From: Acidithiobacillus sp. HP-2
GTDB taxonomy: Bacteria > Pseudomonadota > Gammaproteobacteria > Acidithiobacillales > Acidithiobacillaceae
Direction: 5' to 3'
NCBI RefSeq assembly: GCF_015100155.1
Contig: NZ_JACKZA010000010.1
Coordinates: 26 to 49,651, forward strand
DNA: 49,626 nt
Position numbers and translations under genes: made by a program
Notes under the pieces: model-generated
What the model was told of the DNA's origin: nothing
Database searches by the model: none
What the model saw: the letters and a program-made list of their open reading frames with translations, nothing else
Shown here: positions 1,694 through 49,626 of the stretch, piece after piece
Layout: each line of letters begins with the position of its first letter
Numbering within the stretch: the stretch's first letter is position 1

Positions 1694-1740
1694 TAGCTCC
1701 GTTCATTGGATGAATGGCGCTATCCATAAAGGAGATTATG

Positions 1741-2911: not shown

Positions 2912-2925
2912 TGGCAAGCTGGAAA

Positions 2926-4151: not shown

Positions 4152-4188
4152 AGGCGCCTGGACACCCGCAATCAGCCTCCCTTTAAAA

Positions 4189-5856: not shown

Positions 5857-5869
5857 GAGATGATCTCCA

Positions 5870-7360: not shown

Positions 7361-7362
7361 GC

Positions 7363-9612: not shown

Positions 9613-9666
9613 TATGTCTTTGTTTTACCTGTATCAAAGACGATATCTGACACCGAGCAAGTCGGA

Positions 9667-11512: not shown

Positions 11513-11564
11513 AAATCCATCTCACTAGATACGACCGCCGAACACTACCTGAGGAAGCACAATT

Positions 11565-11870: not shown

Positions 11871-11873
11871 AAA

Positions 11874-12821: not shown

Positions 12822-12829
12822 GGGAATCC

Positions 12830-13705
12830 TTAGTGCCAGTCATCCGTCGACAGGGCGGAGGGCACCCTCTGCGGCAAGACAAGAGAACCATTGGCATCGG
12901 CAATGGCCTCAATACTTATCCATGGTGGGGAAGATACCACCTCTCCAAAAATCGTCGCGAACGCTACATCAGCGGCATCACGGCCCGTACCCAATCGTAA
13001 CAGTCCCATAGGAATCGCGATGCCAGAAGGGTCGAATAAATACCAGCCTCCAACCAAGTAAACCTCTACATAAGCATGGAAGTCGAAAGTGTCATAGGTC
13101 AGATTTACGCCATAATTAATACCTGTCGCAAACCGTGCGGGAATATTGCTGGCACGGCAAAGCGCAATCATCAAATGCGCGAAGTCGCGACAAACCCCCG
13201 CCGTTTCTATAAGTGTGTCAATAGCAGAACTGTTGGAGTCGGAGGTGTTTTTTACATAGGTAATACGCCCCGCCACCCAGTCACAAATTGCCTGCACACG
13301 GCTATATCCTGTTTGACAGTGGCCGAATTCTCGCATGGCGAGCAGATAGAGACGATCTGATTGACAATATCTACTTGGGTATAAATACCTCAGCGACTGA
13401 AATGGCAATTGCGCCACTGGAATCTCGCCTACCTGTTCCGGTTCAGCTATGTGATGGCTTAGTTCGATAGACGCCGTGTACCTTACCTGCAGAAGTCCCG
13501 TTGCCGCGCTTAGGCGTAAAAAGCGGTTACCCGTTGAAGGATCGTCTTCGACGTTCCACGGTACATTCTGGTTGATGATTAAATATTCATGAACCACTTT
13601 CTGCCGCTTCGTTTGCGCGGCATGAATGTTGAAAATAAAATCGCTTCCGGGCGCATTCACTTCATAACTCAGCGCCAAGGATAGTTGCAGATGAATCATA
13701 GCCAA
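12830..13705 (-). CDS. Transglutaminase-like (cysteine protease fold) protein
   Basis: A 291-residue protein with an N-terminal beta domain (about 1-110, the region often found before bacterial transglutaminase-like domains) and a catalytic core at about 150-225: Cys in AGVCRDFAHLM, His in FHAYVEVYL and Asp in YLFDPSG. Bacterial members often act as proteases or amidases rather than cross-linkers, so the reaction is open. The start may be TTG at 13705 (GAGAG five bases upstream) or the ATG at 13699. No signal peptide is seen. It leads a two-gene operon with a trypsin-like protease. Confidence 0.85.
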   Translation of the reverse strand: MAMIHLQLSLALSYEVNAPGSDFIFNIHAAQTKRQKVVHEYLIINQNVPWNVEDDPSTGNRFLRLSAATGLLQVRYTASIELSHHIAEPEQVGEIPVAQLPFQSLRYLYPSRYCQSDRLYLLAMREFGHCQTGYSRVQAICDWVAGRITYVKNTSDSNSSAIDTLIETAGVCRDFAHLMIALCRASNIPARFATGINYGVNLTYDTFDFHAYVEVYLVGGWYLFDPSGIAIPMGLLRLGTGRDAADVAFATIFGEVVSSPPWISIEAIADANGSLVLPQRVPSALSTDDWH

Positions 13706-16833: not shown

Positions 16834-16942
16834 TCGTAAGAATGAAGCCTACATCTTCAATTCCGGCGTTAATTTTGCATATTATTCTGTGCGCTTTTCA
16901 GTTTGCCATAAATGAATGGGTAAGGGGGAACGTTGGGGTGAT

Positions 16943-17014
16943 CAATGACCGCTTCCGCTGCCCTGCCGCCGTTGAGTCCTGATGGTCGGCAGCAGACTGA
17001 TAACGGTCATTCGC
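16943..17014. repeat. Imperfect palindrome, copy D of the interspersed core
   Basis: The left arm starts CAATGACCGCTTCCGCTGCC and the right arm ends GACTGATAACGGTCATTCG, so the two arms of about 30 bases pair imperfectly with the GTTGAGTCC region as loop. The right arm overlaps the last codons and stop of the long minus-strand regulator gene (stop at 17007-17009). It may end transcripts from both sides, like REP-type palindromes. Confidence 0.6.
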
Positions 17015-20811: not shown

Positions 20812-23800
20812 GTGAATAGAATTTATCGTCTCGTTTTTAATGTTGCGCATGACGAACCACAGGTGGCCTCAGAGCATGCCAAAGGGCGCGGTAAAGGCGG
20901 TCATAACTCGGACGGGGTATTAAAAACCCGTTTCTCGACACCCATACTTGGTGCTAAAAGGCGACGCTTGTCGCCTGTTTTTATCGCTATAGCAACGATG
21001 TTGCTGGCGACATCACCTGTATCGGCTTTTGCTGCTTGGAATGTCACCATTAAAACGGGCGGAACAACATCCTTTTCCAATCCGTTCAGTGCTACGAGCC
21101 AATCCACCATTAGCCCAACCAGCATTGATAGCGCACTGACGAATGGAAGGACTGTTGAGGTTTTTACCGGCTCAGGTGGGGTTCAGAACGGTGACATCAC
21201 TGTGGATAGTCCAATCACAGCCGATGGAAGTGGTTCGCTCTACTCGGAGGCAACGGGCAATATCCCTGTCAATGCCAATATCAGCAGTTCTAGCAGCACG
21301 TCTCCACTCAACCTGTACCTCTGGGCAGGTTATTCAGATCCATCAATAAGTCAAACATATACTGCGGGTGCTGACCCCACTGCTGCTGTCGATATTGGAC
21401 AGACAGCTAATGCGAAAATAAATACTGGCGGTGGTAATGTAGATATAAATACCGGTGATGCCACGCACGCCGGAGGCGCCGTCAACATTGGTATTGGCAG
21501 CATTGCAGGCAACATCAATACAGGTGGCGGCGCGCTGACGGTGAACGCGACTGGGATCACGCAGGGTACCGCGAGCGGTGATGCGCTGACGGTTGGGGGT
21601 ACATCTACGTTCAACGCCGGTGCGGGTGTGCTGGATTTGGGCAGTAGTGTCAATGATTTCACCGGAGCGGTAAGCCTCAACAACAGCGGTACGAACGGCG
21701 TCACGCTGAACAACGGCAGTCACGCCCTGGAATTGGGTACTTCCAGCGTGGGTAGCAGTCTGGATGTTACGGCAGGTAATATTTCGCTAACCAAAAATGT
21801 AACTGTCGGCAGCACGGTGGTTCTGGATTCGGGAGGCACCATTGATCAGACGGGCGGGATTCTAACGGCTGGGACGCTAACGGGCCGTTCGGCGGGAAGC
21901 ACGACGCTGGATGGTGCCAATCTGATCACCGATCTGGGAAGTTTTACGGCCGCCGGATTCAGCTTGAGCGATGCGAATACAAATGGATTGACGGTTAATG
22001 GGCCAGTTGATTCTGTCAATGGCACGACTCCCGAGGACGTCACATTATCGACGACGAAGCAGGATGGCGACCTCACGATTGACGGCACGGTGGATGGAGC
22101 GAAGACCACCCTGACCTCAGACGGGGATATTTCGGAAGGCGCAAACGGAGTAATTGACGCTTCTAACCTGACGGGCAGTTCGGTGGGAAGCACGACGCTG
22201 GACGGAGTCAATCTGATCACCGACCTGGGAAGTTTTAAAGCAGACGGATTCCGCCTGACCAACGCACAAAACCTGACGGTGTCCAGCGGTGCCACGGTGA
22301 ACGGTGGTAACAGTACAGATCTGACGACGACGAAGGGTGGCAACCTCACGATTGACGGCACGGTAGATGGAACGACGACCACCCTGACCTCGGCGGGTAC
22401 GATAGGAGAAGGCGCTGGCGGTGTGATCAGCGCCACCGATCTGACGGGCAGTTCGGTAGGAAGCACGACGCTGGATGGTGCCAATCTGATCACCGATCTG
22501 GGTATCTTCACGGCTGCCGGATTCAGTCTGACCAACGCACAGGCGCTGACGGTCAATGGTCCGCTGACGACGACTGGCAATACCGGGACGATTGATCTGA
22601 CCACAACCAAAGGTGAGTTAGACGTGAATACGGGCCTGACAGGTGGTGCGATTACTCTGAATTCGGCGGGAAATCTTCCCCTGACTCAAAACATCAGCGG
22701 CAGCACGGTGGTTCTGGATTCGGGAGGCACCATTGATCAGACGGGCGGGATTCTAACGGCTGGGACGCTAACGGGCCGTTCGGCGGGAAGCACGACGCTG
22801 GATGGTGCCAATCTGATCACCGACCTGGGAAGTTTTAAAGCAGACGGATTCAGTCTGACCAACGCACAAAGCCTGACGGTGTCCAGCGGTGCCACGGTGA
22901 ACGGTGGTAACAGTACAGATCTGACGACGACGAAGGGTGGCAACCTCACGATTGACGGCACGGTAGATGGAACGACGACCACCCTGACCTCAGACGGAGA
23001 TATTTCGGAAGGCGCAAACGGAGCCATTGTTGCTTCTAACCTGACGGGCAGTTCAGTAGGAGGCGCAACCCTGAACACTAGCAACAATAGCATTGCCAAC
23101 CTGGACACATTTACAAATACGGGTTCGGGTGGGCTTACGCTGACGGATAATCAAGCCCTCAATATCGTTGGTGCGATTAGTGCAAAGAGTTTCATCCTGA
23201 ACGACTCCAATGGCGTTACCCTAACCAGTTCCATTACCGCCGCTACTACTTTGGCTTCTGGAACAGAATTGCAAATTGGGAATGGAAGTACATCGGGTTC
23301 TATTACGGGCGCAATAACTGATAATGGAGCCTTAAATTTTGACCAACCTCAATCCGATGTTGCCACATTAAATAATATCATCAGCGGTAGTGGTAGTGTT
23401 ATTCAATCAGGCACAGGTTCTTTAACCCTCTCCGGTGTCAATACCTATAGCGGCGGCACCACTTTGAACAGTGGCACCACATCTATCGGATCTGCAGACA
23501 ATCTGGGTAGCGGGGCTATCACCTTCGATGGTGGCACTCTCGAAACCACCGCTGCGCTTACGGATGCCGCTGCCATCGACTTAAAGACGACAGGCACGCT
23601 GAACAACGGCGGCAATAACGACACGCTCTCTGGCATTATTTCTGGTTCGGGCAGCATAGCCCTTGCCGGCTCGGGAACTACCACCCTCTCCGGTGTCAAC
23701 ACCTACAGCGGCGGCACCACGATCAACGGTGGCACCCTGGCTCTCACTGGCACGGGCAGTATCGCCGACTCTTCCGGTGTTACCGACAACGCCAGCTTCG

Positions 23801-26247
23801 ACATCAGCGGAGTAACCAGCAAGGGCGGAGCCAGAATCGCCAGTCTCAAGGGTACGGGCACCACGACGCTGGGCAGCAACAACCTGACTCTGACCAACGC
23901 CAGTGGTACCGACAGCGGGTCGATCAGCGGCACAGGCGGACTGGTTCTGACCAAGGGCACGGAAACCCTCTCCGGCGCCAACACCTACAGTGGTGGCACT
24001 ACCGTTGATGCGGGCACTCTGAATGTCGCCAGTGGCGGAACGCTGGGTGACGGGGCATTGAACGTCGCCAGTGGCGCTACCACCAATCTGGATAATACGG
24101 CTCAGACCATTACGGATCTGAACGGTGCAGGCGTCCTCAATCTTAATGGCGACACTCTCACCACGACGGGCAGTGGCACGGACAGCTTCTCCGGTGTCAT
24201 CGGTGAAGCCTCAGGAACCACTGGTGCCCCCATCATGGACGGCACAGGTTCTTTGACCCTCTCCGGTGTCAATACCTATAGCGGCGGCACCACTTTGAAC
24301 AGTGGCACCACATCTATCGGATCTGCAGACAATCTGGGTAGCGGGGCTATCACCTTCGATGGTGGCACTCTCGAAACCACCGCTGCGCTTACGGATGCCG
24401 CTGCCATCGACTTAAAGACGACAGGCACGCTGAACAACGGCGGCAATAACGACACGCTCTCTGGCATTATTTCTGGTTCGGGCAGCATAGCCCTTGCCGG
24501 CTCGGGAACTACCACCCTCTCCGGTGTCAACACCTACAGCGGCGGCACCACCGTTGATGGTGGTGGCCTTCTTAGTGTTGATTCCGGGAACAGCGTGGGT
24601 ACCGGATCGATAACGCTCAACAGCGGTGCGCTTGGTAGTAGCGCGGGCGTGGCTTCCGTTGCGCTGAGTAACGTTATCAGTATCGGGGGCAATGGCGGCG
24701 CACTTATCGGCACAGATCAAACCAGCATAGACCCCACTACCAGCAATGCACTAACCCTCACCGGAAAACTATCCGGCACAGGAACCCTTCAGACCCAGGG
24801 CACTATTATCGATAATGGCACGGGGGGTACCAGTGGCGGGACCACGGTCGCCAACGGGTTACTGGAAGTTGGAGACATCAACCATGCTGCGGCCTCCCTC
24901 AGCGGACCTGTCACCGTCGATAGCGGCGCTTATCTACGCGGCCATGGCACCATCATCGGCAACGTCACCAACAGCGGCACCGTCTTTCCTGGCGGCACCA
25001 TCGGCATCCTGACGGTCAACGGTAATTATGTGCAGAATCCAGGCAGCACCCTGGACATCGAGGTAACGCCCAATGACAGCACTCCGGGTGTGGGCTACGA
25101 TCAGTTGAATGTTACGGGCACGGCAGCGCTCAATGGCAAACTCGCTGTGCAGGTAGGCTCTGGTACCTACACCGTCGGCGAACAGTATGACATTGTCCAT
25201 GCAGATGGTGGCGTCTCCGGGACCTTTTCGGGGGAGACCTACAACCCGCTTTTCGCCGGTTACCTCACACCGCAAATCAGCTATGGTGCTCAGGATGTCT
25301 ACCTGAAACTCACAGGCACCCCGCAATCCTACAACTCTGGTAGCGGCGTTGCAGATAATTTGTATGGTGTGAATGAAAGCCTGCAAAGTGCCATGGGAAG
25401 CGTGATGGATGGCTCCCAGGGTGTCGGTGGGTCTTCCCCAACATTCACAGCTACGCACGTCGGCAGCTGGGCCAAAGGTCTGGGTGGCTTCGGGCGCGCC
25501 AATGGGGCCGATGTCATGGATTATGGCGGGGTAGCCGGATACGGTAAGGCAATCACGCATCACCTGGTCCTCGGTGCCGCGTTCTCCGGCATGGGCACCC
25601 AGACCCGCACACAGCAACAGGCGGTCAGTGGTAAATCTTTTGGCCTCTACGGCTACGGGATATATGCCCATGGTGCTCTCAGGATTTCCGGCACACTCGG
25701 AACCGGCCTGTTGTCCGCCAGCTCCAACAGGAATCTAGATCCCACGGGCATGAGCGCATCGGGCTCCACCAGCGGCTGGTTCTTCGGTTCCGGCGTCCAG
25801 GCGCAGTATCTGGTGCCGCTGGGGCAGACCTTCCTCATGCCTTATGTGAGCGCTACCTACCTGCATGCGCATCTCAATCCTTTTGCGGAACAGGGTGCCG
25901 GACTACTGAATCTCTCCTATAGCGGTCAGACAGCCAACCTGGGCACCTTCACGGGTGGACTCCGGGCGGGCACAGATATAAAAGCGAGCGGCCTCACCTG
26001 GATACCCTGGGTGGAAGTAGGTGGCACTGGCACTGCGGGCAACCGGCATAACGCCAACATTGAGACGTTAGGACTTACCACCTCGACGGAAATCGGCCAG
26101 ATTGCGCCAGCAGATAGTCTTGATACGGGAGCAGGGCTGACCATTAAAGGCAAGGGGCCCTGGACGGCAAAAGTCGCCTACGTCGGTCAGTTCGCCGGAA
26201 ACACGCATTTCAATACATTTGATTTAACGGCGAATTATCGCTGGTAA
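20812..26247 (+). CDS. Giant autotransporter adhesin (type Va secretion)
   Basis: An 1811-residue surface protein. The N-terminus has an extended signal peptide (MNRIYRLVFN... then Lys/Arg-rich, with a hydrophobic core SPVFIAIATMLLATSPVSAFA near 55-77), typical of type V secretion. A passenger of about 1450 residues is low in charge and rich in Thr, Ser, Gly and Asn, and is made of beta-helix repeats. Autotransporter-associated strand repeats of the LSGVNTYSGGTT type recur from about residue 870. The C-terminal 270 residues are the beta barrel (SWAKGLGGFGRANGADVMDY start, ending FDLTANYRW with an aromatic last residue). The start is GTG at 20812 with AGGAAG eight bases upstream. Long near-identical internal repeats are described separately. 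An intrinsic terminator follows. Adhesion to mineral or sulfur surfaces is plausible but inferred. Confidence 0.93.
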   Translation: MNRIYRLVFNVAHDEPQVASEHAKGRGKGGHNSDGVLKTRFSTPILGAKRRRLSPVFIAIATMLLATSPVSAFAAWNVTIKTGGTTSFSNPFSATSQSTISPTSIDSALTNGRTVEVFTGSGGVQNGDITVDSPITADGSGSLYSEATGNIPVNANISSSSSTSPLNLYLWAGYSDPSISQTYTAGADPTAAVDIGQTANAKINTGGGNVDINTGDATHAGGAVNIGIGSIAGNINTGGGALTVNATGITQGTASGDALTVGGTSTFNAGAGVLDLGSSVNDFTGAVSLNNSGTNGVTLNNGSHALELGTSSVGSSLDVTAGNISLTKNVTVGSTVVLDSGGTIDQTGGILTAGTLTGRSAGSTTLDGANLITDLGSFTAAGFSLSDANTNGLTVNGPVDSVNGTTPEDVTLSTTKQDGDLTIDGTVDGAKTTLTSDGDISEGANGVIDASNLTGSSVGSTTLDGVNLITDLGSFKADGFRLTNAQNLTVSSGATVNGGNSTDLTTTKGGNLTIDGTVDGTTTTLTSAGTIGEGAGGVISATDLTGSSVGSTTLDGANLITDLGIFTAAGFSLTNAQALTVNGPLTTTGNTGTIDLTTTKGELDVNTGLTGGAITLNSAGNLPLTQNISGSTVVLDSGGTIDQTGGILTAGTLTGRSAGSTTLDGANLITDLGSFKADGFSLTNAQSLTVSSGATVNGGNSTDLTTTKGGNLTIDGTVDGTTTTLTSDGDISEGANGAIVASNLTGSSVGGATLNTSNNSIANLDTFTNTGSGGLTLTDNQALNIVGAISAKSFILNDSNGVTLTSSITAATTLASGTELQIGNGSTSGSITGAITDNGALNFDQPQSDVATLNNIISGSGSVIQSGTGSLTLSGVNTYSGGTTLNSGTTSIGSADNLGSGAITFDGGTLETTAALTDAAAIDLKTTGTLNNGGNNDTLSGIISGSGSIALAGSGTTTLSGVNTYSGGTTINGGTLALTGTGSIADSSGVTDNASFDISGVTSKGGARIASLKGTGTTTLGSNNLTLTNASGTDSGSISGTGGLVLTKGTETLSGANTYSGGTTVDAGTLNVASGGTLGDGALNVASGATTNLDNTAQTITDLNGAGVLNLNGDTLTTTGSGTDSFSGVIGEASGTTGAPIMDGTGSLTLSGVNTYSGGTTLNSGTTSIGSADNLGSGAITFDGGTLETTAALTDAAAIDLKTTGTLNNGGNNDTLSGIISGSGSIALAGSGTTTLSGVNTYSGGTTVDGGGLLSVDSGNSVGTGSITLNSGALGSSAGVASVALSNVISIGGNGGALIGTDQTSIDPTTSNALTLTGKLSGTGTLQTQGTIIDNGTGGTSGGTTVANGLLEVGDINHAAASLSGPVTVDSGAYLRGHGTIIGNVTNSGTVFPGGTIGILTVNGNYVQNPGSTLDIEVTPNDSTPGVGYDQLNVTGTAALNGKLAVQVGSGTYTVGEQYDIVHADGGVSGTFSGETYNPLFAGYLTPQISYGAQDVYLKLTGTPQSYNSGSGVADNLYGVNESLQSAMGSVMDGSQGVGGSSPTFTATHVGSWAKGLGGFGRANGADVMDYGGVAGYGKAITHHLVLGAAFSGMGTQTRTQQQAVSGKSFGLYGYGIYAHGALRISGTLGTGLLSASSNRNLDPTGMSASGSTSGWFFGSGVQAQYLVPLGQTFLMPYVSATYLHAHLNPFAEQGAGLLNLSYSGQTANLGTFTGGLRAGTDIKASGLTWIPWVEVGGTGTAGNRHNANIETLGLTTSTEIGQIAPADSLDTGAGLTIKGKGPWTAKVAYVGQFAGNTHFNTFDLTANYRW
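21808..21944 (+). repeat. Autotransporter internal repeat 1, first copy
   Basis: This copy of about 137 bases begins GGCAGCACGGTGGTTCTGG and is nearly identical to 22699-22835. The offset is 891 bases, or 297 codons, so recombination between copies keeps the frame. Confidence 0.8.
22211..22391 (+). repeat. Autotransporter internal repeat 2, first copy
   Basis: About 181 bases starting TCTGATCACCGACCTGGG, nearly identical to 22811-22991. The offset is exactly 600 bases (200 codons). A few differences occur (CCGC versus CAGT, AAAACC versus AAAGCC). Confidence 0.8.
22699..22835 (+). repeat. Autotransporter internal repeat 1, second copy
   Basis: Second copy of the repeat at 21808-21944; the copies differ at one position near the end (GATCTGG versus GACCTGG) before they diverge. 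Confidence 0.8.
22811..22991 (+). repeat. Autotransporter internal repeat 2, second copy
   Basis: Second copy of the repeat at 22211-22391. It overlaps the end of repeat 1, second copy, so the region looks like a mosaic of shuffled units. Confidence 0.8.
23410..23720 (+). repeat. Autotransporter internal repeat 3, first copy
   Basis: 311 bases starting GGCACAGGTTCTTTAACC and ending GGCGGCACCAC, matched at 24241-24551 with one difference seen by eye (TTTAACC versus TTTGACC). The unit encodes two LSGVNTYSGGTT strands and the segment between them. Confidence 0.88.
24241..24551 (+). repeat. Autotransporter internal repeat 3, second copy
   Basis: Second copy of 23410-23720, 831 bases (277 codons) downstream. 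Near identity over 311 bases including synonymous sites implies recent duplication or gene conversion. Confidence 0.88.
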
Positions 26248-39810: not shown

Positions 39811-40212
39811 TTGAGCAGAGGTATAAGTAAGGCGTGCTTGTTGATTGCTTGTATGGTCTGGATATTTGCGGGCATTCCGGCCGAGGCTTACGGGAGTTAT
39901 TTTCGACCTGGGCCGAAAGGAAAGGACGTCACCATTTCGAACGGCAGCCTTTCGATAACTTTGAATATTCCTTGGGACGGAGTGGTGGTTTCGGTGTCGA
40001 ATCGACACGTAGCCCATGGGCTGAACATTGTCGACACCCATGATCCGGGGCGTGAATTACAGGTGGATCAGTTTTTATTTTTATCGGATGGAACGTCATC
40101 TGTTCTGCTTTTCATTGGAAATCATCACTGGACAGCTTCAGCGCGGAATGTCTTTTGTAGGATCCTCCCTGCGTCATGGGCACATCCATCAGCATTAGGA
40201 TCTACAAATTGA
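39811..40212 (+). pseudogene. Exported protein, probably truncated at its 3' end
   Basis: A TTG start with AAGGAG seven bases upstream gives a signal peptide (CLLIACMVWIFAGIPAEA) and a domain with VTISNGSLSITLNIPWDGVV, VSVSNRHVAHGLNIVDTHDP and GRELQVDQFLF. The NIVDTHDPGRELQV segment is like a carbohydrate-related beta domain seen at the start of larger proteins, from general recall. After about residue 100 the composition changes, and the last 88 bases overlap the 3' end of the convergent glycoside hydrolase gene. This suggests that the original gene was cut and replaced by the hydrolase segment near 40120. It may still be translated as a 133-residue product. Confidence 0.5.
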
Positions 40213-41387
40213 TACGTGGCCGTATTTCCGGGGTAGTTGTAGCTGTTGACAATATAACCAGGCGCTTGAACAGGGGCATCCCATCCGTAAACGGTTATCC
40301 CAATAGCATGCGCTGGGAGATATCGCTGAATAAAGTATCGGGTGATGGTCTGATTCGGATCATTCGGACAATGTTTGAGGCCCTCGTCCCATTCTGTAGC
40401 GATGACGGCGTGACCGCTGGCTGCCAGATTTCCAAACCGTGTATTCCATAAGTGGATACTGTCGGTTAGATTTCCGCGCACCACATATTGATAGGGATGC
40501 ACGCTGTAGGCTGAGTTAGGCGGCATTCCATGCGGCACAGTGAAGCCGGAGAAGCCAAAATCCACACCGTCACCCATGAAAAGAAGGACATTTTCTGGAG
40601 CTTGCTGACGTAGCCATCTCCCCACCGTGAGCATGCCCTGATCGGGCTCTCTGCCACAGCCATGCGCCCAGGATTTCCAGTCAGGATGCCTGAAGGTACC
40701 GTCAGCGCATGCGCGAGTCGTTGAAGGCTCGTTAAAGACTTCCAGTATCACCTCCTTATCATGCGTCAACCGCGAATCCAGGAGTTGTTTCCAGGCTTGT
40801 TCGGTCCGGAGATCTGGCAGCTTCTGGAGTCCTCCATCCTCATAAGGCGTACAACTGTATCGCTCGGTTTGCATGCACAAGATAACAATAAGGCCGGCGC
40901 TTCGCGCCTGTTCAATCACGTTACGCACCATGTCAGTGTAGGCAGAAAGCCCATGGGTATATTCGTACTGGAGTGCTCCCTGGCTGAGGTTGAAGCGTAC
41001 CGTATTGGCGTGCCAGTCCTTTACCATTGCTTGCAGGGACGCGTTATAACCGAAACCAGGCATTGCTGTTGCCGTCATGGCGGCCTGCGCTTCCTGAAGA
41101 TTGGCTGCTGCGGGAGAGGCACGAAAATGGCTGCTACATAAAGAGGCAGCGTACTGCGTGGGATAGGCCAAGGAAACCGAGGTGAATCCTCGCGGTATAA
41201 ATAATTGATTGGTTCCAGCCACGACTAACCGTCCGTCCACGACGGCCACTCCTGAAGTCGCAGCAGATGGAGCGGGGGTTTGCGCAGGCGTGGTATTGGC
41301 CAGAGCCTGATTGCTCACGCACGCGATACACGCAAGAACTAGCGCCGGGAGTGCAGCAGCAAGGGCGATACGCAGGGATTGTTTCAT
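40125..41387 (-). CDS. Glycoside hydrolase family 5 (cellulase-like), exported
   Basis: A 420-residue protein with a signal peptide (LRIALAAALPALVLACIACV, cleavage perhaps after ALA) and a TIM-barrel catalytic domain of family GH5. The acid/base Glu is in VILEVFNEPSTT, the nucleophile Glu in AVIATEWDEGLKH, with the supporting Arg-Asn region NTVRFNLSQGALQ and His-Tyr in SVHPYQYVV. The enzyme would cut beta-1,4 glucans or similar polymers outside the cell. This is unusual for a chemolithoautotroph; matrix or biofilm polysaccharide is a possible substrate (inference). GGAGG lies 13 bases upstream of the ATG. A decayed IS630-type relic lies right upstream. Confidence 0.88.
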   Translation of the reverse strand: MKQSLRIALAAALPALVLACIACVSNQALANTTPAQTPAPSAATSGVAVVDGRLVVAGTNQLFIPRGFTSVSLAYPTQYAASLCSSHFRASPAAANLQEAQAAMTATAMPGFGYNASLQAMVKDWHANTVRFNLSQGALQYEYTHGLSAYTDMVRNVIEQARSAGLIVILCMQTERYSCTPYEDGGLQKLPDLRTEQAWKQLLDSRLTHDKEVILEVFNEPSTTRACADGTFRHPDWKSWAHGCGREPDQGMLTVGRWLRQQAPENVLLFMGDGVDFGFSGFTVPHGMPPNSAYSVHPYQYVVRGNLTDSIHLWNTRFGNLAASGHAVIATEWDEGLKHCPNDPNQTITRYFIQRYLPAHAIGITVYGWDAPVQAPGYIVNSYNYPGNTATYQFVDPNADGCAHDAGRILQKTFRAEAVQ

Positions 41388-41469
41388 TTGAGTTCAGTTG
41401 CCTCCGACATGGGTACATATGCGAGAGTGTCGTCTCTCGTCCCCGCATTTTTGCTAAAGAGTTTTTGTA

Positions 41470-42397
41470 CGTACTGACTGCACCTGTGCGCAGAGCAGTT
41501 TTGAAATCCCGATTCAGGTATTCGTCGGGGTTGGATTCTGGCGCGTAGGGCGGCAGAAAGGCCAGTTCAATGCGGTCTTTTTTATCTGCCAGCCAAGCCG
41601 TTACCACTTTGGCATGATGCACCCGCAGATTATCGACGACCAGATAGATTTTCTGGGGCGCGTCCTGAATCAAGGCGGTGAGAAAAGTGATGAAACGCTC
41701 CGCATCAATGCTGCCTTCGACAATCTGGAAAGCGACTTTGCCCTGCGGAGAAATCGCCGAGATCATGGAGAGCGTGGTCCATCGGGCGGGAACCGCCAAT
41801 ACCGGCGTTTGTCCCCGAGGCGCATACCCGCGCACCCAATGGGCATCTTCCTTGACGGCCGTCTCGTCCCCCCAATAAATCACCGCTCCCTCTTGGGCCG
41901 CTTGCGCGCGCAGGCGGGAATAATCCTGCTCCAACCACTGACGGACTGCTCCTGGATTCTGCTCCAATGCCCTTTTGACAGGGCGTTGCGGAGTGAAGCC
42001 CCAACGTTTGAGATACTTACCCACCAGACGCTCCTGTAGATCCACCCCAAAATGGTCTCGAATCAGCGCGCGTATCGCCGGTCGCGTCCAGAGCGCAAAA
42101 AGCAACTTTATTTGCTGAGGGTTACCCTTGACGATCTGATCGCGTATCCAGGCCTCGGCGGCCAGGGTCAGTTTGCGACAGGCAACTACCCGCCGACCTC
42201 GGCGCTTCTCTCCCAGCCCTTTTTCTCCTTCTATACGGCGCCCGCGCCAACCAGCCTTTAATGGTCGTAGGATGTGCGCCAGATAGCTTGGACAACTCTT
42301 TCACGCTCATCCCGGATTGCTTGCGCAGACGAACCACCAACTGGCGAAGCATCCGCCTCCCTTCCATCGTCAAGCTGCGCACGTCGATCCATTCCAT
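41470..42397 (-). pseudogene. IS630-type transposase relic, frameshifted and truncated
   Basis: The N-terminal HTH part starts at 42397 (MEWIDVRSLTMEGRRMLRQL, SGMSVKELSKLSGAHPTTIK). The frame then changes by one base near 42250, just after TTIKGW, and continues in another frame through a DDE domain: Asp in VIYWGDETAVKED, Asp in IYLVVDNLRVHH, Glu in PPYAPESNPDEYLN. After about 41490 the family C-terminus is lost and unrelated sequence follows. Both the shift and the truncation make it non-functional unless frameshifting is programmed. It belongs to a different IS630 branch from the intact element at 8506. Confidence 0.85.
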
Positions 42398-42478
42398 GAT
42401 CTATATATTATCACAGGATGGTCGGGTATTTAAGTGCCGTATTAATAGAAGGATTAGGAATAAAGCTCATAATCACCA

Positions 42479-43600
42479 TTACTTCCGCTTTATAATAGCC
42501 GCGCAAGTACCTCCCCCAGAAGGTCCTTGATGCTCTGCACCACCAGAAACATAAAGTGTTGTTTTACCTGTTAATGCCGCCAAAACCCCGCCCACAGCCG
42601 CACGAGCGTGGCGGGTTGAAGTGACATCGGAATCAGTAAGCATAGTGTGCCGTTCACCACGTATCAAACCATCAGGACTAGCTTCTGCCTTAACAAAAAT
42701 ATTTACCAAGCGGTCAGAAATAACTGAATAACTCTTCAACAAATCAAGTCCAAAGTCATTGGAAAACATTTCAAGTACGCTTTTAATATCGATTGAATCA
42801 TGCATGATAGTATGCGAAATAAAATATGGTGATGAAGATCCAACTAAGTTGCCAAATACAATTACAACGTTATTATCAACCTCAATGCCTGCTGAAATAG
42901 ATGCACAGCCACTGTATTTATTAAAATCGGAAAGAATCGTTGAATTGTCTATTTCATTTTGCCTTGCATCACCAAGCGCAATAGCGACACCCAATGCAGA
43001 AGCAGCACGAGAGTAAGCCATCGATTTATATGTATCCTGTGTTACAGCCATTGCACCTCTAATTAATAAGTTATTTATTTTTTCATTGGTAAGTAAGGGA
43101 CATTTAACCTGAACCAGATGAATATCATCAGAATTATTTAAACCAGCATCTTGCATAGCTAATTTGACAGCCTTTGCTGTCTCTAGAACTTGAGCCATAG
43201 TACCAATTTCTTCTGGAAGGAATTTTTTAGTATGAGAAATGCCTATTACAAGACCTTTTTCAGAAGATGATAAGAAGGGAATAAATGATCTAGTGAAAAC
43301 TGTAAAATGTGGTGACAGTACCCCTTCTGTTCCACCAGACATAACTAAAGCAACCCGCTCTAAAACAGATTCAGGACTACAATTAAAATATGCACAAAGA
43401 AATGTGCACCAACTTTTAACAGCTAAATCACGCGCAAAATCATTTACTCCACCATTACCTTCAGTTTTTCCCATTACAGCAACTATTTCATTGGGATTCA
43501 ATTCATTCTTATCGACTAACATTCGCACACCATTTAAATCAGCGGGACCGCTACAGGCTATAACATAAACTTTAACTTGCTGGCTTAATTTTTCATTCAT
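42479..43600 (-). CDS. Ring-opening amidohydrolase (cyanuric acid hydrolase / barbiturase family)
   Basis: A 373-residue cytoplasmic enzyme closely resembling AtzD and barbiturase, which open nitrogen heterocycles by hydrolysing a ring amide. The three structural repeats each bring a Lys and a Ser: Lys45 (VMGKTEGNG) and Ser88 (VMSGGTEGV); Lys166 (VQVKCPLL) and Ser234 or Ser236 (CASISAGIE); Lys304 (VKAEASPDG) and Ser352 (YVSGGAEHQGPSGGG). The full set is intact. Substrate preference (cyanuric acid, barbituric acid or another) cannot be told by eye. The start ATG has GGAGAG about six bases upstream, one base after the stop of the monooxygenase gene. It is the last gene of an AT-rich minus-strand block with an ABC importer. 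Confidence 0.93.
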   Translation of the reverse strand: MNEKLSQQVKVYVIACSGPADLNGVRMLVDKNELNPNEIVAVMGKTEGNGGVNDFARDLAVKSWCTFLCAYFNCSPESVLERVALVMSGGTEGVLSPHFTVFTRSFIPFLSSSEKGLVIGISHTKKFLPEEIGTMAQVLETAKAVKLAMQDAGLNNSDDIHLVQVKCPLLTNEKINNLLIRGAMAVTQDTYKSMAYSRAASALGVAIALGDARQNEIDNSTILSDFNKYSGCASISAGIEVDNNVVIVFGNLVGSSSPYFISHTIMHDSIDIKSVLEMFSNDFGLDLLKSYSVISDRLVNIFVKAEASPDGLIRGERHTMLTDSDVTSTRHARAAVGGVLAALTGKTTLYVSGGAEHQGPSGGGTCAAIIKRK

Positions 43601-43601
43601 A

Positions 43602-45023
43602 TTATCTCTCCATAAATTCGATGCTATCAAACGATAAAAGATCATTATAAAAAGAATTAGAATCTTCTAAAAATAACTCTTTAGTTATACCATAACAAAG
43701 CCGATCAATCCCAAACTTTAAAACTGTAATACTGGAATTGCTAGCAAGGCTCATCATTGCTCCATAATTATAACAATATATACGGCGAAGAAATGGTGCA
43801 GAACCAGGTAACTTTTCGGTAAACTGAAATGAACTTGAAAGATATGGATACCTTTCAAGACCAAATTTAGTGGGATCGGTTGATTCTTTAAATTTATCAC
43901 CCCATGTTGCTATTACATCATGAAAGTTTCTGAGTTCAGGTCTAGAGCTTAAATCCACAATAAAACCAGTAGCAATAATTAAATAGTCAAATTCTTTTTC
44001 CCATGCTTCTGCGGTCAATTTAATCAAGTTATTTTTATACGATACATCCTGAATATTGCAGCCTGTTTGATAATAAAAATTATTATAGGCTATACACCGA
44101 TTGTAGCTGTCTTGAGTCGGCGGTTGACTTCGCTCAAAGATTAAATTCATAAACTTCCATTTTATTTCATCATCAAGATCTGAATAATGGCGTAAAAAAC
44201 CAGAAAATTCCATCCATTTATTTGGGTTAACTTTAGGAATGGTTTTTCTGCGAATAAATAGTTCAACCTTACTAGCTCCATGATCTAATGCTACAGCTGC
44301 ATTATCAAATGCAGATGCACCTCCGCCTATAATCGCAACCCTCTTTCCTGTTAGAGCGTTAAAATTTATTGATTCTGACGAATGAGAATAGCTATATGCT
44401 GGTAGGTTATCATGAAATATCTTGGGTGAGTACCAGGTTCCACATCCCTCTATGCCGTTTGCAAACACGACATTTCTGGCTAAAATAACATCTTTTGAAT
44501 CTATTGTGTCTAAGTTAACACTTAGTATTGATTCTGAAATTGGATTAATATTTGTAACCTTTAAGCCATTTAAAACCTCAACACCAGTTGTCTTTTTAAA
44601 CCATTGTAAATACTCATGCCAATCAACTTTCGGAATTTTGTCTAATTTAAACCATGATTTTACACCATGAATAGCCTCCCACCAGTATCTAAAAGAAAGA
44701 CTTGGAAAACCATATTCAGGCCCGCATATATATTTAGGTGATCTCAAGGTTTTCATCCGTGCAAATTCAGTCCATGGACCTTCCCTAAATTTGGGCTCCT
44801 GATCTATAACTTTAATGTTATTGACACCTTCGCGCATCAACCTAAATGCCAAAGATATACCATTCTGTCCACCACCAATGATTAATACGTCAACAATCTT
44901 AGTACCATTAAATAATTTTTTTTTAACCCAATTACTTTTTGGATATAATAGGTACTCAAGCTCTTTTTTGACTTGTGTTTCTAACTTTTCTAATCGCATA
45001 GATCGGGATTTAAGTTTTTTCAC
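43602..45023 (-). CDS. Flavin-dependent monooxygenase (FAD/NAD(P)-binding)
   Basis: A 473-residue protein with two Rossmann motifs: FAD-binding VLIIGGGQNGISLAFRL near residue 50 and NAD(P)-binding VAIIGGGASAFDNAAVAL near residue 230. Between them is a region like flavin monooxygenases and ornithine hydroxylases (REGPWTEFARMKTLRSPKYI), and an ATG motif occurs near the end (YLIIATGFIVDLSSRPEL). It probably uses NAD(P)H and oxygen to hydroxylate a small substrate. The N-terminus is Lys-rich and helical. The start is GTG at 45023 with AGAGG upstream. It is coupled to the ring-opening amidohydrolase gene (one-base gap), so the two probably act on one compound in turn. The substrate is unknown. Confidence 0.85.
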   Translation of the reverse strand: MKKLKSRSMRLEKLETQVKKELEYLLYPKSNWVKKKLFNGTKIVDVLIIGGGQNGISLAFRLMREGVNNIKVIDQEPKFREGPWTEFARMKTLRSPKYICGPEYGFPSLSFRYWWEAIHGVKSWFKLDKIPKVDWHEYLQWFKKTTGVEVLNGLKVTNINPISESILSVNLDTIDSKDVILARNVVFANGIEGCGTWYSPKIFHDNLPAYSYSHSSESINFNALTGKRVAIIGGGASAFDNAAVALDHGASKVELFIRRKTIPKVNPNKWMEFSGFLRHYSDLDDEIKWKFMNLIFERSQPPTQDSYNRCIAYNNFYYQTGCNIQDVSYKNNLIKLTAEAWEKEFDYLIIATGFIVDLSSRPELRNFHDVIATWGDKFKESTDPTKFGLERYPYLSSSFQFTEKLPGSAPFLRRIYCYNYGAMMSLASNSSITVLKFGIDRLCYGITKELFLEDSNSFYNDLLSFDSIEFMER

Positions 45024-45474
45024 CTTAACCTCTCAATACTTTTTAAATCTAAAGCTCAATCGCTATGGGTTTAGCCAGATGACTCATTTTACAATCTTTT
45101 AGCTTGAAAGAAAACTTAATCTCCCTTGATTATTCGGTGAAGCGTTAGACAAATTTAAACTGGAGTATCAACAATAACTGCCGGTAACTAAAGGAAAGTG
45201 TCTATGACACTGAATTGGAATTAATTTCCGATCTTCAATACTAAATAGCACAGATGGAGATTTCCTTTGTTAACAAAACTCATTTTTGATCCAGAAGCTG
45301 GGATATTATAAAATGATTTATCACCTGAAATGCATCGTGCAGAACAAGCAAGTAAAACCGAAGCGGTAATTTAGGTTTCGATTTGCTGCGGAACGTAACT
45401 TCCACAGAATCCGGTGAGCAGTAACACAGAATACTGTTCGCAGAAAGCGAAACCTGATCCGATCGTACAAAACG
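45024..45474. other. Gene-free AT-rich gap inside the heterocycle block
   Basis: About 450 bases between the VOC gene and the monooxygenase gene with no supported frame. A lost gene or a separate promoter for the last two genes is possible. The segment near 45360-45460 is less AT-rich than its surroundings, perhaps a relic of another source. Confidence 0.4.
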
Positions 45475-45972
45475 TTAAAAAGATTCCCCCGCAATATATT
45501 TTTTTTCAAGATAGTTTCTTTCACTTAATCTCTCCCTACTACTCAGAAATGTTAACTCCAAGAGCACACCATTGGGGTCATAACAAAATACTTGGTATAA
45601 ATCCGTATTAGGAACTCTGAATTCGCGCCAATCAATATGATTACTTGTCAATCTGGATAATAGCTCTGTGAAACCTTCACACATAATCGATACATGGTCT
45701 ATAGAACCTGTGTCTGTAAATGGATTGCCATTACTAGCAAGACCTTGTCTTCCACCATAAAGATGAATAATTGGATTTTTTTCATGATTAGCTAACCAAG
45801 CACCCGGATATCCGAATGGAGGTCTTTCAATGGGAATCAAACCTAAAACTACACAATAAAATTTAATTGTTTTACTTAGGTTTGAGCACTTAATGGCTAT
45901 GTGAGATATATTCTTTAAGTTAAATACATTTTTCGCATCGGTAGTAGGTAGCTCTTTATCAATCATTGTCAT
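45475..45972 (-). CDS. VOC-fold (glyoxalase/dioxygenase superfamily) protein
   Basis: A 165-residue metal-dependent protein of the vicinal oxygen chelate superfamily. Metal ligands fit His in LKNISHIAIKCSNLSKT, His in GSIDHVSIMCEGF and Glu in GVLLELTFLSS, with YPGAWLANHEKNPIIHLYGG between. Such proteins act as glyoxalases, ring-cleaving dioxygenases or antibiotic-binding proteins. The context (importer upstream, monooxygenase and ring-opening hydrolase downstream) suggests a step on the same compound, but the reaction is unknown. The start may be the ATG at 45972 or 45966. Confidence 0.85.
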   Translation of the reverse strand: MTMIDKELPTTDAKNVFNLKNISHIAIKCSNLSKTIKFYCVVLGLIPIERPPFGYPGAWLANHEKNPIIHLYGGRQGLASNGNPFTDTGSIDHVSIMCEGFTELLSRLTSNHIDWREFRVPNTDLYQVFCYDPNGVLLELTFLSSRERLSERNYLEKKYIAGESF

Positions 45973-45994
45973 GCCTATCGGGTAAAAAATCTTT

Positions 45995-46759
45995 TCATCT
46001 TTCTGACAAGTAATATCTATCTAAATGCACTAGAGCTGCAACACTATTAACTAATACATAAAAAATCAAACCAATTACAGCTGAAAACAAAATGGCGGCA
46101 AATAAAAGGGGTGTATTCATCTCATAAGATGCTTGTATAATTACGTATCCCAGACCAGCATCTGCTGTTACCAATTCGCCAACTATGGCGCCAACAACTG
46201 ATAATGCCACTCCAAACTTTAAGGCTGACATTATTCCCGGAAGAGCAAGTGGCAGTGTCACAGAGAAAAAAGTTCTAATTTTACCAATGCCAAAAACTTT
46301 AAAAAGATCTATTCTTCCTCCATCTTCTACTGAAAAAGATTGTGCTATTGTTATTGTCATTGGAACAAGCGTAACTGCAAACGATGAACATATTCTAGAT
46401 TCTATACCTTCTCCAAACCAAAGGACAAACAATGGAGCTATTGCAACAATTGGAGTTGTTTGCACTACTATTAAATAGGGCATTATCATTTTGTGTATAA
46501 CAGTCACTCTTCCAACAAGCGGTGCAATTACCATGCTTGCAATAAAAGCAAAGACCAAACCAAAAAAACTTTCCTTAAACGTCATCATAAAAGCTGGCAT
46601 CAAAATAGTATAATTGTTATTTATTGCATTAATTATTTGTATAGGTGTAGGAATGACATAACTCTTTATTCCCATAATGGTAATGCCTACCTGCCACGCA
46701 CAAGCGAACAGTACACCAAAAATTAATGAAGGATAGATTTTTCTTAAATTTCTTGTCAT
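45995..46759 (-). CDS. ABC importer permease (SsuC/TauC/ThiX-like)
   Basis: A 254-residue membrane protein with about six transmembrane segments (IYPSLIFGVLFACAWQVGIT, FFGLVFAFIASMVIAPLVG, LLFAAILFSAVIGLIFYVLV). The conserved cytoplasmic coupling loop with LPLALPGIMSALKFGVALS is the binding-protein-dependent transport signature. It belongs to the group that imports nitrate, sulfonates, taurine and pyrimidine precursors. I chose ATG at 46759; a TTG at 46777 is possible. The ATPase gene ends 39 bases before this ATG (21 bases before the TTG). Confidence 0.9.
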   Translation of the reverse strand: MTRNLRKIYPSLIFGVLFACAWQVGITIMGIKSYVIPTPIQIINAINNNYTILMPAFMMTFKESFFGLVFAFIASMVIAPLVGRVTVIHKMIMPYLIVVQTTPIVAIAPLFVLWFGEGIESRICSSFAVTLVPMTITIAQSFSVEDGGRIDLFKVFGIGKIRTFFSVTLPLALPGIMSALKFGVALSVVGAIVGELVTADAGLGYVIIQASYEMNTPLLFAAILFSAVIGLIFYVLVNSVAALVHLDRYYLSER

Positions 46760-46798
46760 TTCTATAATTTTTCCCAATCATTCAAACGCATGATATAA

Positions 46799-47545
46799 TT
46801 AGTTTGCCATACCCGCTTTTTTAATTGCATTTGTAACCTCCAGTTTGGTTTTAAAATATTCAGAAACATGTTTGTTTTGTGCATCTAGCTCGAACTTCTG
46901 CAAAATACTTCTACCATCTTTTTTTGCTAAAATTATTATCTCTGAAGAAACTTTAATTGCTTCTTCAATAGAGTGTGTGTTTAATATAATCGTCAATTTT
47001 TTATCTTTAGCTAAAGTTGCAACTAAATCGGTTAAGGTTTCTCTAAGGTGATTATCTAGTGCTGAAAATGGTTCATCCATTAAAATAATTTCGGGATTGG
47101 CAGCTAAAGCTCTTGCAATTGCAACTCGTTGTTGCATTCCTCCTGATAGCTCTTTAGGGAATTTCATCTCTGCGCCCGATAAACCAACTGCTTTAATTTT
47201 CTCATTTGCTTCATGCATCCTTGTCTCCATATTTATTTTAGAGGCCTGAGAGCCAACAAGGACATTTCTTAATACATTCCTCCATGGCAGCAATGTTGGA
47301 TTCTGTGGTACAAATGAAGTTTTTAACGTTATTTCTTTTCCCTTTTTAACCTCCTTATATATGTATCCTTGTGTAATATTTTCTAATCCTGCAAGTGTTC
47401 TTAGTAAGGTTGTTTTACCAACACCGCTTGGTCCCATTATACTGATAAATTCTCCCCTTTTTATATCAAACGAAATGTCTGTAAGAACTTTCTCATCGCC
47501 ATATTCAACATATATGCCATCAATTTTCATAAGGTAGTTATCCAT
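46799..47545 (-). CDS. ABC importer ATP-binding protein
   Basis: A 248-residue ATPase with Walker A GPSGVGKTT (residues 38-46), a Q loop in SFVPQNPTLLPW, signature LSGGMQQR, Walker B EIILMDEPFSALD and the switch His in LNTHSIEEA. The set is complete, so the importer is energised. The start ATG lies one base before the stop of the binding-protein gene (TGA at 47547-47549, read on the minus strand), which implies coupled translation. It belongs to the nitrate/sulfonate/pyrimidine-precursor class by layout. Confidence 0.93.
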   Translation of the reverse strand: MDNYLMKIDGIYVEYGDEKVLTDISFDIKRGEFISIMGPSGVGKTTLLRTLAGLENITQGYIYKEVKKGKEITLKTSFVPQNPTLLPWRNVLRNVLVGSQASKINMETRMHEANEKIKAVGLSGAEMKFPKELSGGMQQRVAIARALAANPEIILMDEPFSALDNHLRETLTDLVATLAKDKKLTIILNTHSIEEAIKVSSEIIILAKKDGRSILQKFELDAQNKHVSEYFKTKLEVTNAIKKAGMAN

Positions 47546-47546
47546 T

Positions 47547-48539
47547 TCACTTATTGCACCTAAGAAAATCGTTAGTATAAAAGATGTTAGGGGATGGAAT
47601 CTTTGATTCTTTCCATCCTCCAAATTTTATCATTGCATTTTCCATGCTATACACCCTTTTATTTGACATCCTTCCAAAGCAATCTTGTCCTGCCATTTTT
47701 GATGTAAATAATGGTATAACAGCGCTAGCTTCCTGTTCTAATTGCTTACGCGTTTTTTGAGGATTATCTTTTAATATTATATTTATAGTCTTTTGAGGGT
47801 GTTTTATTGAAAACAACCAACCTTTTTGTGAAGCTTCTACAAACTTCTTCACTGTGTTGGGATGATTTTTTATATAGCTAGAAGTGCTGAATAAGGTATC
47901 ACCATACCAATTAGGTGCATACTTAGCAAGCTTAAACTCTCTTACAGGTACTCCTGCATCCATTGATTCAAATGGTTCATTTCCAACATAACCATTCCAT
48001 ATCGGAATTCTACCAGAAAGAAATGGTGCTAAACTTAAAGTTTTTCTAACCGTCCTAACCTCATCAGGTTTTACTCCATTTTTCTCTAATATATATGGTA
48101 AAAGGAGTTGTGACATACCACCAATATTTATCCCGATTGTTTTTCCTTTGAAATCCTCTATTGATTTAATACTTGAATTTTTTTTCACCATAAACTCTTC
48201 ATATGGTTTTTGGAAATCAGTCATCAGCATTTTCAACTTTAAACCGTGTTCATAAGCATAAAATATTGGTTCTGGGGTTTGAATGCCAAACTGAGCCGCT
48301 CCGTCAGCAACCTCCTGTACAGTATTAATATCGGGCCCACCTGAAATAATTTTTACATTCAAACCCATTTTTTTGTAATAACCGTTTGCTTTTGCGACTA
48401 AATATCCTGCAAATTGATACTGTGGAACCCATTTTAGATACAAAGAAATATTTGTATCGCCAGCATTTGCGTTCGAACTCATGAATCCAACCAGTGAGAT
48501 TCCAATAAAAGCATTTCTTAACATCATTTTTCTGTTCAT
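47547..48539 (-). CDS. NMT1/THI5-type substrate-binding protein
   Basis: A 330-residue protein with a signal peptide (MMLRNAFIGISLVGFMSSNANA) and the NMT1/THI5 fold: LYLKWVPQYQFAGYLVAKAN, GYYKKMGLNVKIISGGPDIN, DGAAQFGIQTPEPIFYAYEH, and EDFKGKTIGINIGGMSQLLL. This group binds pyrimidine precursors of thiamine, riboflavin-type compounds and related molecules. Aromatic residues around the predicted pocket (Trp, Tyr, Phe) would suit a planar heterocycle. The ATG has GGAG eight bases upstream. It is the first gene of the block. The exact ligand is unknown; the catabolic genes downstream suggest a ring compound that is used as a nitrogen source. Confidence 0.9.
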   Translation of the reverse strand: MNRKMMLRNAFIGISLVGFMSSNANAGDTNISLYLKWVPQYQFAGYLVAKANGYYKKMGLNVKIISGGPDINTVQEVADGAAQFGIQTPEPIFYAYEHGLKLKMLMTDFQKPYEEFMVKKNSSIKSIEDFKGKTIGINIGGMSQLLLPYILEKNGVKPDEVRTVRKTLSLAPFLSGRIPIWNGYVGNEPFESMDAGVPVREFKLAKYAPNWYGDTLFSTSSYIKNHPNTVKKFVEASQKGWLFSIKHPQKTINIILKDNPQKTRKQLEQEASAVIPLFTSKMAGQDCFGRMSNKRVYSMENAMIKFGGWKESKIPSPNIFYTNDFLRCNK

Positions 48540-48790
48540 ATCAATAACTCCAATTTAAATATTTGACCATTGTCATCATCTGCGATATGTATTCACTCTA
48601 AGCACTATTTTTTTCTAAAAACATTATCAGCTTGGTAGACCGTCTTTACAATTGCCTTTTTCGCAGATATATAAGGATAAAAATGCAACACCACTTTTCT
48701 TGTCGCCCAACAGAGTAGGACACCTCAAAAAACTTAATATCATTTGTATATGATATAATATAACTAATTGAAATAAATGAGATATGGCTG
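48540..48790. promoter_or_regulatory. Upstream region of the heterocycle block
   Basis: About 250 bases, AT-rich, between the binding-protein gene and the IS5-type relic. It must hold the promoter for the minus-strand block. No regulator gene is adjacent and no clear operator could be identified. Confidence 0.35.
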
Positions 48791-49265
48791 ATGAAGTCCA
48801 GAAAGACCGCGATCAAAATAGATCTGTTTGCCGCAGACCTGCACCATCAGAAACTGGATCAGTTGGGAGATCCGCTTCTACTCATTGGCGCCGGTATCGA
48901 CTTTACGGCACTGGCAGCACAGGTGGATGGATGCAGCGCCTCGACCGGTTAGTCCCCAGGGTGGCCCGCCCGCCTTATCCCACTGAAGTCATGGTGCGAA
49001 TTCTGGCCTTGAAACGCCTGTATAATTTTTCGGATGAACAGATGGCATTCCAGCTTGTGGATCGCCACAGCTATCAACGCTTCTGCGGCCTACTGGATGC
49101 CCGCGCGCCTGACTGACCGCACGACCATCTGGCATTTTGAGAACCGCATCGGAGTAGGCGGTGCTGAAGCCCTGTTTGCAGCGGTGGAGCAACAAATTCT
49201 ACAGCACGGTTATCTGGCGCGAAGGGGTATGATCATTGATGCCACCCTGGTTCCTGCACTCAAGC
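48791..49265 (+). pseudogene. IS5-type transposase relic with frameshifts
   Basis: Three frames in succession carry one transposase: 48791 onward (MKSRKTAIKIDLFAADLHHQ, GAGIDFTALAAQVDGCSAST, then a stop), a second with RPPYPTEVMVRILALKRLYN, FSDEQMAFQLVDRHSYQRFC, and a third with DRTTIWHFENRIGVGGAEAL, MIIDATLVPALK. The order and motifs are those of IS5-family transposases. The C-terminal half is cut where the IS66-type element begins at 49266. It is inactive. Confidence 0.85.
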
Positions 49266-49626
49266 GTAAGCGTCTAAGCAACCCACCTTTCCAAATTTTC
49301 TGGACTGAGCAATCGTGATCTGCATTCAGCACGGAGGGATGGGGATGAAGAAAGCAGAGAAAGTCGCTTATTGGCGGCAACAAGTGGATGCCTTTCAGGC
49401 GAGCGGCCTTACGGTTAAGCATTATTGTGCGCAGACGGGGATCGCCGTTGCCACGCTGCATTACTGGCGCAAACGCTTTGCTGATTCTGAGAGTACGCCG
49501 TTGCTGGCCGCCGTGCCTGAAGGGTTTTTGCCGGTAACTCTGGCTGCACCGGTCAGGACGCCTGCTTCACCGGTAGAAATCTACCTGTTATCCGGTCGCA
49601 GCCTGAAGCTTGCAGCATCGGTAGAT
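49266..49626 (+). mobile_element. 5' part of an IS66-type insertion sequence
   Basis: The end starts GTAAGCGTCTAAGCAACCCA and resembles the inverted right end of the IS66-type element at 1-439 (GTAAGCGTTCAGCGAACCCA). It interrupts the IS5-type relic. The first gene of the element follows at 49339 and runs out of the window. Confidence 0.75.
49339..49626 (+). CDS. tnpA: IS66 family accessory protein TnpA, N-terminal part
   Basis: The frame opens with ATG at 49339 (a second ATG at 49345; GGAGG directly upstream favours 49345) and stays open to the window end, 96 codons. An HTH-type region (VAYWRQQVDAFQASGLTVKH, YCAQTGIAVATLHYWRKRFA) is typical of IS66 TnpA, the accessory protein that precedes TnpB and TnpC. 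The rest is outside the window. Confidence 0.85.
   Translation, partial: MGMKKAEKVAYWRQQVDAFQASGLTVKHYCAQTGIAVATLHYWRKRFADSESTPLLAAVPEGFLPVTLAAPVRTPASPVEIYLLSGRSLKLAASVD

Follow-up and report, generated by a model that had tools for sequence, protein, structure and literature searches.

Cyanuric acid hydrolases have mainly been studied in connection with herbicide and disinfectant residues, and cyanuric acid is described as also forming occasionally through oxidative DNA damage (PMC3758960). Among the closest described systems to the locus reported here is the atzDGEHF / atzRSTUVW region of plasmid pADP-1 of Pseudomonas sp. ADP, in which the hydrolase AtzD is accompanied by AtzG, AtzE, HpxZ and AtzF, a LysR regulator and an ATP-binding cassette (ABC) importer with a BMP-type binding protein. 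Our locus is a six-gene island at positions 42479-48539 of a 49,626-nucleotide stretch of Acidithiobacillus sp. HP-2 (contig NZ_JACKZA010000010.1), the whole of which is called the window below. Its ring hydrolase shares with AtzD 48.8% identity over 95% as well as the catalytic and specificity residues, and both systems have ABC importer genes close by; however, neither the regulator, the BMP-type binding protein nor the four further Atz and Hpx proteins occur in the island, which instead holds an NMT1-type importer, a VOC-fold protein and a flavoprotein. Clusters in which an amidase set is associated with a monooxygenase have also been described, and in the available part of that report they appear without a ring hydrolase, an NMT1 importer or a VOC protein (PMC6219798), while our search of the open-licence PubMed Central literature found no description of the present cluster type. 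With a probability of roughly 0.6, we interpret the island from its sequence as an acquired unit that takes up and hydrolyses cyanuric acid or a closely related ring imide, into which the flavoprotein and the VOC protein would feed a related heterocycle.

According to the open reading frame list and to Pfam and NCBIfam profiles, the six frames are intact and all lie on the minus strand. In the order of transcription they encode an NMT1/THI5-type substrate-binding protein (47547-48539; PF09084, 177 bits), the importer ATPase (46799-47545; PF00005, 112 bits), the permease (45995-46777; PF00528, 81 bits), a VOC/glyoxalase-fold protein (45475-45972; PF00903, 34 bits) and, after a geneless gap of 451 bp (45024-45474), an FMO-like FAD/NAD(P) flavoprotein that is a candidate monooxygenase (43602-45023; PF13738, 53 bits, and PF13434, 40 bits) and the hydrolase (42479-43600; 373 aa). 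The initial annotation had spoken of five adjacent functions; the number of genes is six. Its description of intact motifs on one strand with one-base gaps at 43601 and 47546 was reproduced, as the binding-protein stop ends at 47547 and the ATPase starts with ATG at 47545, and the flavoprotein stop ends at 43602 and the hydrolase starts with ATG at 43600. The shared AT-rich composition was seen again as well, with a GC content of 0.34-0.38 in the six 1-kb intervals of 43001-49000 against 0.39-0.59 in the remaining 1-kb intervals listed. Transposase remnants lie on both sides: two broken frames of an IS630-family transposase on the left (41134-42397, minus strand; NF033545, 163 bits versus 100, with HTH_23 in 42122-42397) and a DUF772 remnant on the right (48784-49116, plus strand; PF05598, 50 bits). 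The composition, these remnants and the presence of an AtzD-type copy in only one of 17 genomes of the genus support the view that the block was apparently acquired laterally from another microbe.

The hydrolase belongs to the ring-opening amidohydrolases (PF09663, 458 bits) and scores 481 bits on the cyanuric acid amidohydrolase equivalog model NF052395, whose cut-off is 360. All three Lys/Ser pairs reported in the initial annotation are present (K45/S88, K166/S236 and K304/S352), and the alignment identifies E240 as the Glu that partners the nucleophile pair; the roles of these pairs and of this Glu in the family are described in PMC4051656. Five positions are described as separating cyanuric acid hydrolases from barbiturases, which in AtzD numbering are Arg195, Thr321, Arg325, Gly345 and Gly346 in the AtzD type, and Asn195, His321, Lys325, Val345 and Ser/Ala346 in barbiturases (PMC3758960). 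At each of these positions the window enzyme agrees with AtzD (R198, T329, R333, G353 and G354). Among solved structures, five distinct chains named cyanuric acid amidohydrolase match it near full length with E-values of 4e-83 or better. In a tree of 49 rows it pairs with a hydrolase of genome G207 (L041; support 100/99), with AtzD of pADP-1 next to this pair at a support that is not strong (91/66), and all three fall in a clade of 10 rows (support 100/98); placing the enzyme in a tree with characterised members, as had been proposed at the outset, thus puts it in the AtzD clade. The neighbours of L041 are homologues of AtzF, HpxZ, BMP, BiuH and AtzE. On these sequence grounds the window enzyme is taken as a true cyanuric acid hydrolase of the canonical AtzD type. 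Although 11 of the 17 Acidithiobacillus genomes searched have a match to the hydrolase family, the 10 non-self matches are only 39-41% identical, so that the AtzD-type copy was seen in one of the 17. Scans of viral contigs yielded no relative of the hydrolase or of the flavoprotein.

Neither atzG, atzE, atzH nor atzF lies beside the hydrolase within the island, as judged from the open reading frame list and Pfam. The host genome (3.2 Mb in 48 contigs) does encode the downstream enzymes elsewhere. Contig 23 carries a biuret hydrolase (390 bits versus a cut-off of 370), which is 62% identical to an isochorismatase-family protein beside atzD on plasmid pRL10 and matches the solved biuret hydrolase 6xjm with an E-value of 2e-98, together with an allophanate hydrolase (780 bits versus 511), and contig 16 carries homologues of AtzE (702 bits versus 461) and of HpxZ/AtzH (199 versus 135). 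Since these four are present, the known route to ammonia is encoded, and the earlier proposal that the product and the end of the pathway would be new is rejected, the hydrolase itself being of AtzD type. The opened ring would pass through carboxybiuret, biuret and allophanate to ammonia by way of the biuret and allophanate hydrolases.

A second PF09663 enzyme is encoded on contig 16, in a cluster at 2815-13293 (L039). It has the signature Arg-Met-Arg-Thr-Arg, corresponding to Group IV of PMC3758960, and a Leu in place of the conserved Glu of the family; its neighbours are genes for xanthine dehydrogenase, an XdhC-like protein, a ureidoglycolate lyase-like protein, AtzE, HpxZ and gamma-glutamyltransferase. 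The cluster is of the same kind as one on an Acidithiobacillus caldus megaplasmid, and a match is present in 10 of the 16 other Acidithiobacillus genomes. Two AT-rich patches were also seen on contig 23 (L218): one at 222-3827 encodes an NMT1 binding protein, a 2-oxoglutarate (2OG) oxygenase and a deaminase-type amidohydrolase, and the other, at 15694-17720, a transporter of the cytosine permease family adjoining the biuret hydrolase. These patches may share a donor with the island.

To examine the neighbourhoods of related hydrolases we collected 139 hydrolase-family loci: a genome-contig scan gave four, plasmids two, the second copy of the host one and a phylum sample 13, while the other 119 came from a single family and a single order. 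Six places, either fragments at contig ends or second copies within a stretch already included, were excluded from the set; two pairs of loci overlap (L076/L180 and L113/L143), and several stretches end at contig ends. An NMT1-type binding protein occurs in the flanks of 67 of these loci, and in 61 a binding protein and a permease lie on the strand of the hydrolase. As a control, 20 hydrolase-bearing genomes with 28 loci (L143 being omitted owing to its overlap with L113) contain 543 NMT1 genes, or 4.5 per Mb, so that such a gene is expected in 7.7% of 18-kb flanks; it was observed in 17 of the 28 loci, with a nominal p of 1e-12 that is overstated, since the hydrolase loci are mutually related and the two counting methods differ (a Pfam profile at E 1e-10 for the control, tblastn with cluster-derived queries for the loci). 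The island encodes a complete importer of this type, with the PF09084 binding protein, the ATPase and the permease, and the binding protein matches in sequence, among others, binders of thiamine precursors (3ix1, THI5) and one of a sulfonate (3uif). Its nearest relatives in hydrolase operons, 39% and 33% identical, belong to L182 (genome G572) and L077 (genome G565), two compact operons of binding protein, ATPase, permease and hydrolase that have the importer and hydrolase gene order of the window; they differ from the island in the LysR gene that adjoins them. In the binding-protein tree the window sequence groups with these two and with the contig 23 copy (SH-aLRT 90, long branches). The partnership between importer and hydrolase is therefore well supported.

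The flavoprotein preserves both nucleotide-binding glycine motifs in the alignment, and its NCBIfam matches are all below their cut-offs. A phmmer search at E 1e-5 found no solved relative, and a profile search gave matches of partial coverage only. A flavin monooxygenase of another family, PF01494, lies directly 3' of the hydrolase and on the same strand in five genomes, at L184 (G480), L180 (G467), L183 (G489), L113 (G706) and L144 (G691); in four of these genomes the monooxygenase is followed by importer genes of the same orientation, with a VOC gene in between in L180 and L184. PF01494 matches at L104, L158, L173 and L181 (30-31% identity) were set aside as distant. Two types of monooxygenase in like settings find a parallel in the urate hydroxylases HpxO and HpyO, two unrelated FAD/NAD(P)H enzymes described as catalysing one reaction (PMC4562309). 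Among 248 genomes of one family, the hydrolase is present in 26 of the 54 with a window-type flavoprotein (E 1e-40) versus 42 of the other 194 (p 1.8e-4, shared ancestry uncorrected), and in four of the six genomes with the best flavoprotein relatives (p 0.05, likewise uncorrected).

In the VOC protein, H24, H70, H93 and E139 are four candidate metal ligands that do not vary among six aligned sequences, and its homologues in L184 and L069 share 44% and 41% identity with it. The protein belongs to the general family PF00903, whereas it reaches only 31.5 bits on the Glyoxalase I/YaeR-type equivalog NF050075 (cut-off 140); searched alone at E 0.001 it matched no solved structure, while its profile matched E. 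coli glyoxalase I (E 8e-8). A VOC homologue accompanies the hydrolase in four of the 139 loci, from three genomes. In the same 248 genomes, 11 of the 15 with a VOC gene have the hydrolase versus 57 of the 233 others (p 1.8e-4, without correction for shared ancestry), a VOC-bearing genome being one with a match of at least 130 bits and the weaker matches (46 of 61 genomes) being uncounted; a hydrolase gene is found within 9 kb of only three of these 15 VOC genes. The recurrence of similar gene sets in other bacteria hints that an oxidation step is part of the pathway, and by analogy with these genomes a step by the monooxygenase and the VOC protein would be a credible extension of it. The initial annotation had joined all of these functions in one pathway and suggested comparing neighbourhoods of homologues. 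The comparison bore out the pairing of hydrolase and importer, and showed clusters of hydrolase, monooxygenase, NMT1 importer and sometimes VOC protein to recur, but the monooxygenase in them is of the other family, and the island's own type of flavoprotein lies near a hydrolase in a single locus.

We thus propose that the NMT1-type transporter imports a ring compound or its precursor, and that the hydrolase would open the ring of cyanuric acid or of a very closely related imide; more tentatively, the flavoprotein and the VOC protein might act upstream of the hydrolase, converting a related N-heterocycle into its substrate. Several observations weigh against this last part, and some of them also favour the strongest alternative, namely that importer and hydrolase form the functional unit and that flavoprotein and VOC protein are unrelated passengers in a mobile AT-rich patch. 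The 451-bp gap, which is single-copy in the genome, divides the gene block in two between VOC gene and flavoprotein gene and thus argues against a single operon. It contains a modest hairpin and folds slightly better than shuffled sequences (z -2.1); an Rfam search with E-values up to 0.5 over 41000-49626 gave no match, and promoter- or terminator-like sites are no more frequent than in shuffles. No flavoprotein or VOC homologue was found in the flanks of L182 and L077, nor a flavoprotein, VOC protein or NMT1 binding protein in those of L041. The one locus of 139 with a window-type flavoprotein is L050 (genome G289), where a protein 34% identical to it is encoded about 5.7 kb from the hydrolase, directly after an NMT1 binding protein, ATPase and permease. 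Further flavoprotein relatives occur in unrelated clusters, so that gene context only suggests a substrate. Moreover, the hydrolases beside a PF01494 enzyme have Gln at the position of AtzD Thr321 (six of six aligned rows, from five genes), and a clade including L050, L069 and L076 has Glu there (nine rows, from eight genes); with these residues, both kinds of cluster may act on another ring. Against the passenger explanation stand the flavin monooxygenases that adjoin hydrolase and importer in other genomes, the loci that pair a VOC gene with the hydrolase, and the excess of hydrolase-positive genomes among those bearing the VOC gene. We regard it as a real but clearly less probable account than a connected uptake, oxidation and hydrolysis pathway.

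A second alternative, which we consider rather unlikely, is that the flavoprotein is a hydroxylase of the oxopurine or pterin type and that the rings handled by the island derive from purines or pteridines, their oxidation yielding cyanuric acid or a close relative as a product. The closest flavoprotein relatives found, in Rhizobium sp. ACO-34A (50% identical) and in genomes G503 (46%) and G565 (45%), are encoded in clusters that also contain deaminase-type amidohydrolases, an amidase, a polysaccharide-deacetylase-family protein and HpaB-like oxygenases, and one of these amidohydrolases scores 600 bits as an 8-oxoguanine deaminase (cut-off 532); a relative in Priestia is encoded beside uraD, uraH and a nucleobase symporter. 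On contig 23, the NMT1 binding protein that groups with that of the window is encoded next to the 2OG oxygenase and the deaminase-type amidohydrolase; among solved structures the latter is best matched by 2paj, named a putative cytosine/guanine deaminase and presumably an isoxanthopterin deaminase. However, this amidohydrolase stays below the 8-oxoguanine deaminase cut-off (389 versus 532), there is no linkage between the genes on contig 23 and the window, and the PF01494 proteins of L184, L183 and L144 reach only 58, 74 and 90 bits on the HpxO urate hydroxylase model NF033623, whose cut-off is 500. The uric acid oxidation concerned is a chemical one, and we know of no enzyme that converts a purine to cyanuric acid. 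In the classic cyanuric acid cluster, binding by AtzT is reported at 0.11 uM for guanine and at 340 uM for cyanuric acid (PMC6834077). These ligands and the purine-linked neighbourhoods motivate, without showing, a purine- or pterin-linked pathway. Its most far-reaching form would be a scattered and undescribed oxidative route in which flavin monooxygenases of interchangeable families, together with a dedicated VOC protein, turn an oxopurine- or pteridine-like ring into cyanuric acid or a close imide for AtzD-family enzymes, an idea that we hold to be speculative and improbable as it stands. If true, cyanuric acid would have a biological source, which would account for the existence of the enzyme family before the s-triazine herbicides.

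We consider it very improbable that the hydrolase is instead a barbiturase, or that it opens rings with a new specificity. Barbiturases do belong to the family, a barbiturase-like signature occurs in 29 of 146 aligned rows and the barbiturase 5hwe matches with an E-value of 1.5e-78. The enzyme, however, has R, T, R, G and G at the signature positions and exceeds the cut-off of the cyanuric acid equivalog, and a barbiturase identity is rejected.

Under the preferred reading of the island as an acquired cyanuric acid or ring imide unit, what is probably an acidophile has gained a nitrogen pathway on mobile DNA, and the recurrent set of hydrolase, importer, flavin monooxygenase and VOC protein offers a group of genes with which a natural substrate of the enzyme family can be sought.

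Several other members of the family deserve mention. The 29 rows above, e.g. L155, L166 and L173, read Asn-His-Lys-Val-Asp, which is barbiturase-like except for the final Asp, and hydrolases of this clade often have an NMT1 importer adjoining. Diverged members in L109, L110 and L146, two of them within the L109 stretch, have Phe in place of the nucleophile Ser226; L109 and L110 have an NMT1-type importer in their vicinity, and its ATPase shares 40-43% identity with that of the window. One cluster on contig 17 of genome G467 (L180/L076) combines a Gln-type hydrolase by a flavin monooxygenase with a Glu-type one by an amidase, and genome G706 (L113) has both Gln-type and Glu-type hydrolase genes. 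Family hydrolases are also found on Citrobacter and Klebsiella plasmids (L037, L038 and L195); in L038 and L195 the genes for FdrA, a DUF1116 protein and carbamate kinase are nearby, which suggests a phosphorolytic end of the pathway. In the window itself, a cellulase-family protein (glycoside hydrolase family 5, PF00150) is encoded at 40125-41387, adjoining the island, and an autotransporter-like protein of 1811 aa, with an ESPR signal and PATR repeats, at 20812-26247.

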